Positions 12,368 through 14,374 of a DNA stretch of 64,000 nt are shown here, one piece after another (positions within the stretch are counted from its first letter, which is position 1; the number at the start of each line of letters is the position of its first letter). The notes under the pieces were generated by a model. That model ran no database searches, was not told where the DNA came from, and saw only the letters and a list, made by a program, of their open reading frames with translations. Origin of the DNA: Candidatus Altimarinota bacterium (GTDB lineage: Bacteria; Patescibacteriota; Gracilibacteria; BD1-5; UBA6164); the NCBI GenBank assembly GCA_022565555.1, contig JAIUMN010000002.1, positions 1-64,000 on the forward strand, given 5' to 3'. The translations under genes were made by a program, and so were the position numbers.

Positions 12368-14374
12368 ATGAAAAAGTACTTTATACAGACATTTTGATGT
12401 CAGATGAATCAGGCAGATAGTGAAAAGGTCCAAATGGTACTTCTTCAATGTTGATTTATGAGAGCATCTTCTATTGAAGATGCTCATATTGTCGTATTTA
12501 ATACCTGTAGTGTGAGGCAAAAATGAGAAGATAGAGTTTTTGGAATGATTCAAGAGATAAAAAAACATGATAAAGATAAAAAAGAAAAAACACTTGTTTG
12601 AATAACTGGGTGTATGGTGCGTAAAACAGGTATAGCAAAAAGATATCTAGAGAGTGATGTAAGAAAAAAAATCCAAAAAATAGAATTTTTAGAAACTCAA
12701 AATGAAGTATACAATAGTGATGATAAGCTTTTCCCTCGTAGTATATACCTTGATTTTACTTTTCGTATAGAGGAGACAAAATATATCCCACATATTCTTT
12801 CACATATACTTTGAAAAAAAATAGGACAAGAAGATAAGTTTGATGACTATTTGAAACAAATACAGCAACGAGAAAATCCTTTCTCCGCTTCTGTAATTAT
12901 TCAAACCTGATGTGATAATTACTGTACTTTCTGTATCGTTCCTTATACACGCGGATCTGAGGTTTCACGAGAAAATAGTGAAATAGTAAGTGAGTGTAGG
13001 GAGAGTGTGAAGTCTTGAGCTAAAGAAGTAACACTTCTTGGTCAAAATGTTAATTCTTACGGAAAGCAAAAAAATATCAAACTTTGGAATGCTGAGAAAT
13101 CTAAATGGAACAATACTGAGAGAAAAATGAAAATTGGGATTGATCTTGATGATACTCTTTTTGTAGTCCTTTGAGAAGAATTACTTATGCGTTACAATCA
13201 AAAATTCCGTGATTTAGTACGGATGGAGGATATCACAACTTTTGATTGTTGAGGTATAGAAAATCTTATGAATGAGTATCATATATTTGAAACAGAAAAT
13301 GCCCAAAATTTAGAATTACATACTTGAGGGCAAGAAGTTATTCAGAGTTTAAAAGATGACTGATATAAACTATATGTTATTACCTCTCGAGAAGTTCAAG
13401 CAAAAAACGATACTCTTATACTTTTAGAAAAATATTTTTGAAATGATTTTTTTGAGGAAGTTATTTTTATTAAAGAACGTGGGCATGATAATAAATATGA
13501 AGCTGCAAATGAGTACGAGCTTGATATAGTTATAGATGATGGGCCACATCATATCGATGCATATAGAGAAAATTTTAAGTGAAAGATATGCGTATTTCAC
13601 TCACCATGGAATAGAGAATGTAAAGAGGATAATAAAAAAATATATAGAATTCATGATTGGTATGAGTTTCAAAACCTTCTTCCAAAGTTAAGTTTCACCT
13701 CCCCATTTCGTGTACTTCTTGAAGATGTCTGAAATATAGGTTGACTCGATAGGATACGCTTCACTTCTAGTAATCCTCATGATATGACTCGTGATATACT
13801 TGACGCTCACTTTGAAGTACCATCTATGTGTAATTATCTTCATTTTGCCCTTCAGTCTGGATCAAATGAAATGCTCAAAAAAATGAATCGACGACATAGT
13901 TATGAAGATTTCAGAAATATGGTCTATTATCTTCGATCTCGTGATCCTTTGTTTTCTATTTCAACTGATATTATAGTAGGATTTTCTTGAGAAACTGATG
14001 AAATGTTTGAAGCTACTATAAAAGCTTTTGAGGAATGCCAATTTGATTTTTCTTATACAGCTCGCTATTCTGTTCGTCCACAAACACTTGCAGCTCAGAT
14101 GTTTCCAGATGATGTTCCTGATAATATAAAAGCAGAGAGATGGCATATACTTAACTCTCTTCTTCTCAAAAATGTTCAGACTCGCAATGAATTAATGCTT
14201 GGAAGAATTGAGGATATCCTTATATCATGAGAGCGTGATGAACAATTTTTTGGTAGAACACGAAACTTTAAAGAAGTTTTTTTTGAGAAATCTGAATGAG
14301 TAAAAATATGAGATATCATACCTGTAAAAATTACTGATATGGAAAGATACGTTTTGCGTGGATATATAGCCTAA
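12368..14374 (+). CDS. miaB: tRNA methylthiotransferase MiaB with a nested HAD phosphatase domain
   Basis: MiaB adds a methylthio group to isopentenyl-adenosine 37 of tRNA using two Fe-S clusters and SAM. All six cluster cysteines are present: C11, C47, C82 in the N-terminal UPF0004 domain, and C182, C186, C189 in GCDNYCTFC. The core continues with [11 protein letters not shown], then is interrupted at about residue 245 by some 185 residues that form a complete HAD domain: IGIDLDDTL (D259, D261), YVITSRE, a Lys/DNKY region, and VIDDGPHH. MiaB sequence resumes at LLPKL...[13 protein letters not shown] and ends in a TRAM domain. Total 668 aa against about 440-480 for the family. The insert is in frame, with no stop, and resembles 5'(3')-deoxyribonucleotidase (NT5C)-type HAD proteins. 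Confidence 0.92.

Follow-up and report, generated by a model that had tools for sequence, protein, structure and literature searches.

How does the gene for a near-universal tRNA-modifying enzyme come to hold, inside the catalytic barrel, a second enzyme that has become fixed in a whole genus of organisms with very small genomes, and what might the guest do there? The question is raised by a miaB gene of a Candidatus Altimarinota bacterium (contig JAIUMN010000002.1; the whole 64,000-nucleotide stretch analysed is referred to as the window). The gene occupies positions 12368..14374 on the + strand and, translated with code 25, encodes 668 aa plus stop with no internal stops. Nineteen of its codons are TGA read as glycine, several of them at invariant MiaB glycines (G10, G53, G181 and G217). 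Best-hit annotation labels such genes as MiaB only, so that the phosphatase domain nested inside the protein goes unrecorded.

The outer part of the protein was identified from its domains, its cluster cysteines and its profile scores. A Pfam scan of the 668-aa protein returned UPF0004 at residues 3-88, Radical_SAM in two pieces and TRAM at residues 610-665. The N-terminal UPF0004 (methylthiotransferase) domain (12374..12631, +) carries C11, C47 and C82, the radical-SAM CxxxCxxC motif (12911..12934, +) carries C182, C186 and C189, and the second part of the radical-SAM barrel with the TRAM domain follows at 13700..14371 (+; TRAM at approximately 14195-14362). All six cysteines are invariant among 33 aligned relatives, and the claim of the initial annotation that the gene encodes a full MiaB is borne out by translation, Pfam and this alignment. 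The top equivalog for the backbone is MiaB (TIGR01574), far above MtaB (272) and RimO (210); against an equivalog cut-off of 355.3, the score was 340.5 bits with the insert and 353.7 bits, narrowly below that threshold, with the insert cut out, and the TIGR00089 subfamily model gave 386.5 (cut-off 251). Keeping in mind that MiaA is encoded in the window's genome (IPPT, E 1.2e-74) and that no second MiaB-grade match was found among the matches listed for the genomes that carry the insert, MiaB activity must persist if ms2i6A is needed. We infer that the outer part is the organism's only MiaB, which would make ms2i6A37 in tRNA.

Between SYG232 and R462 lie 229 residues, and within them residues 254-444 (13127..13699, +) constitute a nested HAD domain of the NT5C family. 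Scanned alone, as had been proposed at the outset, the insert matched PF06941 (NT5C) at E 8.8e-11, with 42.4 bits against a gathering cut-off of 24.8. All HAD motifs (DxDx[TV], T/S, K and DD) were found, each on the + strand: motif I, D259-L-D261, the invariant nucleophile and acid/base (13142..13150); motif II, T339-S340-R341 (13382..13390); motif III, K376, unchanged across embedded and free-standing relatives alike (13493..13495); and motif IV, D390-D391, of which D391 is invariant and the D-D pair is replaced by E-D in two carriers (13535..13540). In domain numbering, D6, D8, S87, R88, K123 and D138 are invariant in 14/14 embedded copies, and D6, D8, K123 and D138 stay so once free-standing relatives join the alignment. 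An AF2 model of the HAD alone (pLDDT 95.9) had 3bwv, a deoxyribonucleotidase-like protein, as its top structural match in the PDB (TM 0.83 by target, E 1.8e-10), and a profile search against the PDB likewise returned 3bwv together with mammalian 5'(3')-deoxyribonucleotidases such as 1mh9. Tissue-factor matches obtained when the single insert was searched against the PDB with phmmer were spurious and were discarded. The insert is, as far as its sequence and model indicate, a complete and independently folding NT5C-family HAD, in agreement with the earlier description of an intact NT5C-type domain that keeps both aspartates and the motifs. A PF06941 search of the window's genome missed even the known insert, probably through the recoded TGA; an alignment-based search, which did recover the insert, found no second NT5C copy in that genome, and no second NT5C match was found among the carriers of family f1.

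The domain sits at the tip of an order-specific extension of a MiaB loop, KQxxxKLWNxEKSKWN (13064..13123, +), which is there with or without the insert. In insert-less relatives 41-42 residues separate GQNVN from RIRF, and the normal loop of this order is longer than the approximately 20 residues first supposed. The solved Bacteroides MiaB has approximately 10 residues in an unaligned gap at the insert site. The alignment to 7mjz is interrupted after GQNVNSY (chain residue 221) and resumes with the helix that begins at 232; we take this interruption to be the beta2-alpha2 loop of the radical-SAM barrel. In a model of the full-length protein, which the initial annotation had proposed in order to see whether the HAD is a separate lobe, the HAD appeared as a confident lobe preceded by a low-confidence linker (residues 234-251), whereas the arrangement of the domains, and with it the position of the HAD with respect to the site of tRNA, is unreliable in this model (pLDDT 76, pTM 0.54, built on 12 sequences).

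Of 77 genomes of the order, 14 carry the same insert with the same junctions, which bears on the earlier proposal to look for this fusion in code-25 genomes. The carriers comprise 8/8 genomes of the window's genus (g1), two of g2 and one each of g8 and g6, all of one family, together with two of a second family; 11 of the 14 are also found under separate public records from several projects, mostly as Candidatus Gracilibacteria. The MiaBs read from non-carrier genomes are uninterrupted or bear another insertion at the site. The fusion frame is open in 14/14 carriers and the insert/backbone distance ratio is 1.18 within the genus. The dN/dS of the insert is approximately 0.06-0.24, a range that comes from pairs with unsaturated dS only, most pairs being saturated. 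Judged from these sequences, the insert is apparently maintained by purifying selection in genus g1 and its relatives. That the gene is an assembly chimera or a decaying fusion has a negligible probability, since identical junctions recur in 14 genomes from different projects, the frame is open and the catalytic residues are retained; a chimera is ruled out by the relatives' genomes, and the earlier opinion that the gene is neither decayed nor misassembled is upheld by these independent assemblies. A literature search confined to open-licence papers found none that joins MiaB with a HAD insertion, which is weak evidence of absence and matches the original impression that no such MiaB had been described.

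It is very improbable that the HAD is made separately from an internal start, the ATG at 13127, which is preceded by GAGAGAAAA. In the window this codon coincides with the natural start of the HAD; the other 13 carriers, however, have Leu there (CTC or TTA in the codons read), and no stop separates the HAD from the downstream part of MiaB. An independent start was rejected as not conserved among carriers.

Insertions concentrate in this MiaB loop, a hot spot to which unrelated units have gained entry time and again. In the alignment, insertions of at least 10 aa occur at the HAD site in 25 of the 63 MiaBs of the order, and at any other position in at most 4. At this very site DUF559 (PF04480, E 1e-29 to 6e-34) is found in L033, L034, L035 and L037, as exemplified by the in-frame unit of L037 (895-1320, - strand). 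Inverted repeats flank three of the four units (18 bp in L034, 10 bp in L035 and an exact 10 bp in L037), and in L037 longer imperfect arms, CCTCACCCCAACCCTCTCC and GGAGAGGGGTTGGGGGTGAGG, surround the exact 10 bp. Among open-licence papers, none was found that ties DUF559 to palindromic or homing elements in this way.

The DUF559 units look as if a palindromic, nuclease-bearing element had landed within miaB. Palindromic elements that invade coding genes in frame are known from Rickettsia. In the 3' part of the L034 insert, after DUF559, a 14-codon unit (NQSPNPLSQGGTSV) occurs four times in tandem, each copy containing one inverted-repeat arm, and similar sequences are present elsewhere in the same genome. 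Short in-frame peptides occupy the HAD site in L017, L018, L046, L047, L048, L053 and L056, and most of the short peptides at the site resemble translated palindromic repeats (LTPPLNKGG, ISSEVERS, NPPLTPPLNKGG). One HAD-bearing relative (L078:2176-4254) has a second, smaller repeat-like insertion (TDAASFSPAEQRGETTG) in a different MiaB loop.

The embedded HADs are monophyletic (support 100/99), which establishes a single origin of the fusion, yet monophyly of the MiaB backbones that hold them is rejected (AU p 2e-53). The backbones of G057 and G042 group as sisters with insert-less congeners (100/94 and 100/95, respectively), and the pattern of presence and absence requires at least 5 changes or, after a single basal gain under midpoint rooting, 19 losses. 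With the HADs forming one clade and the backbones not, a single gain of the insert was followed by repeated losses or moves. The same discordance rejects a HAD-bearing MiaB paralogue inherited whole. Free-standing relatives of the HAD occur in Gracilibacteria, other Patescibacteria, Woesearchaeota and Bacillota. A phage origin was also rejected: tblastn against 50,697 phage records matched nothing, and IMG/VR yielded a single match that was weak and partial (28%).

These histories lend some credit to the view of the insert as a present or former mobile unit which entered the exact miaB site in frame and unspliced, in a homing-like manner, its phosphatase activity being kept but incidental. Beyond the discordance of the trees, this view can draw on the composition of the G057 insert, the GC3 of which is lower than that of the MiaB around it (z -4.5, where 49 control MiaBs gave a |z| of 2.5 at most), also when synonymous GC3 is compared with each MiaB half (z -4.0 and -4.0), and in which 5/9 glycines are TGA as opposed to 2/28 in its own MiaB. 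This suggests that the insert alone entered laterally in G057. It is not proof of lateral entry, because neighbouring genes vary widely in GC3 and TGA use and one of them is also TGA-rich. Recoded-codon use is strongly uneven inside this one genome: in L016 (G057), a - strand ORF at offset 262 has 19/22 glycines as TGA and a GC3 of 0.16, and the adjoining ORF has 0/33.

The inverted repeats that bound the DUF559 units at the same site also speak for mobility. The HAD inserts themselves, however, lack the hallmarks of a homing or mobile element: they encode neither nuclease nor transposase, and no terminal inverted or direct repeats around them were consistently above shuffles; the DUF559 units show such hallmarks in part. 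Moreover, the HADs of different lineages are only 34-45% identical, so that any moves would be old or from unsampled donors. Either lateral spread or an ancient gain followed by many losses could account for the pattern, and we consider an incidental mobile unit unlikely. An intein was rejected, as no Hint splicing domain was detected in Pfam and NCBIfam scans and the insert is HAD from end to end. A slightly broader proposal, which we regard as tentative and would not put far above the preceding one, is that in Gracilibacteria-type bacteria the MiaB loop serves as a docking site for splice-less, in-frame mobile units, in which case the DUF559 domains with their inverted repeats would still show the mechanism and the NT5C HAD would be an old passenger that came into different genomes by way of this site and was domesticated, giving a bifunctional enzyme.

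The reading that we favour, with reasonable though not strong confidence, is that the protein is bifunctional and carries, in a permissive loop of MiaB, a mononucleotide phosphatase that works autonomously and was inserted once in frame. A single insertion would have placed a whole free-standing NT5C HAD gene, minus its stop, at the tip of the lineage-specific, exposed loop that joins strand 2 to helix 2 in the radical-SAM barrel; the loop would tolerate insertions and have admitted unrelated units repeatedly; and the insert would have been kept by selection in g1 and its relatives and lost or laterally moved elsewhere in the order. Nucleoside monophosphate hydrolysis would be the most likely work of the HAD, which would share the promoter and the chain of MiaB and take no part in its catalysis. 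Mononucleotides are the probable substrate class based on the NT5C family and fold and on fusions of related domains to nucleotide-degrading partners: in Eubacteriales an NT5C HAD is fused to an inosine-uridine nucleoside hydrolase (L119:2986-4437 and L127), and in a genome of the window's family an HD_3/YfbR-like nucleotidase is fused to an NT5C HAD (L190:888-2085, - strand offset). Action on nucleotides from tRNA turnover is possible. The initial annotation had also considered the SAM by-product pool; radical-SAM products (5'-deoxyadenosine, methionine and SAH) offer no phosphomonoester to a HAD phosphatase, and for this reason such a role is unlikely.

The two enzymes could instead be coupled. 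Positioned at the barrel mouth, the HAD would remove a phosphate that derives from tRNA or from a nucleotide and is tied to ms2i6A37, for instance modified NMPs from tRNA decay in the formation or turnover of the modification, or would gate tRNA binding. The location in the beta2-alpha2 loop, the conservation in all eight species of the genus and the lack of a second NT5C match among the family f1 carriers are consistent with this idea, but the by-products of MiaB are phosphate-free, only 14/77 genomes of the order carry the HAD, and the site has also accepted DUF559 domains and repeat peptides, which share no chemistry. Since the greater part of the order lacks the domain and its site also takes unrelated units, we favour an autonomous over a coupled phosphatase and hold coupling to be improbable.

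A single codon position has thus admitted a HAD phosphatase, a nuclease-like DUF559 domain and peptides derived from repeats. This makes the locus a natural experiment in the origin of nested multi-enzyme proteins, and it bears on whether in-frame elements can propagate in housekeeping genes in the absence of introns and inteins. Among known systems, splice-less homing elements such as the yeast WHO elements (PMC7282813) are similar in the idea of a unit tied to one host-gene site with neither intron nor intein; the HAD insert differs in having no nuclease, and its mobility we only infer. The DUF559 units (PF04480) of L033, L034, L035 and L037 share with it the codon position, the host gene, the reading frame and the lack of splicing signals, whereas DUF559 is an unrelated, endonuclease-like domain and the inverted repeats that flank three of the four units have no counterpart around the HAD inserts. 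In comparison with the NT5C or 5'(3')-deoxyribonucleotidase family (PF06941; PDB 3bwv, 1mh9, 2jao), the embedded domains are alike in HAD motifs I-IV, fold and size, but the window's HAD lies embedded in another enzyme and does not stand free; the embedded HADs form a distinct clade with a stem of 1.05 changes per site, and 13 of the 14 are missing a start codon of their own. Finally, the window protein has in common with MiaB (PDB 7mjv-7mjz) the domain order UPF0004, radical SAM and TRAM, the six cluster cysteines and the best equivalog match, TIGR01574; unlike MiaB, it adds a 191-residue HAD in the beta2-alpha2 loop atop the order-specific extension, in a gene that uses TGA recoded as glycine.
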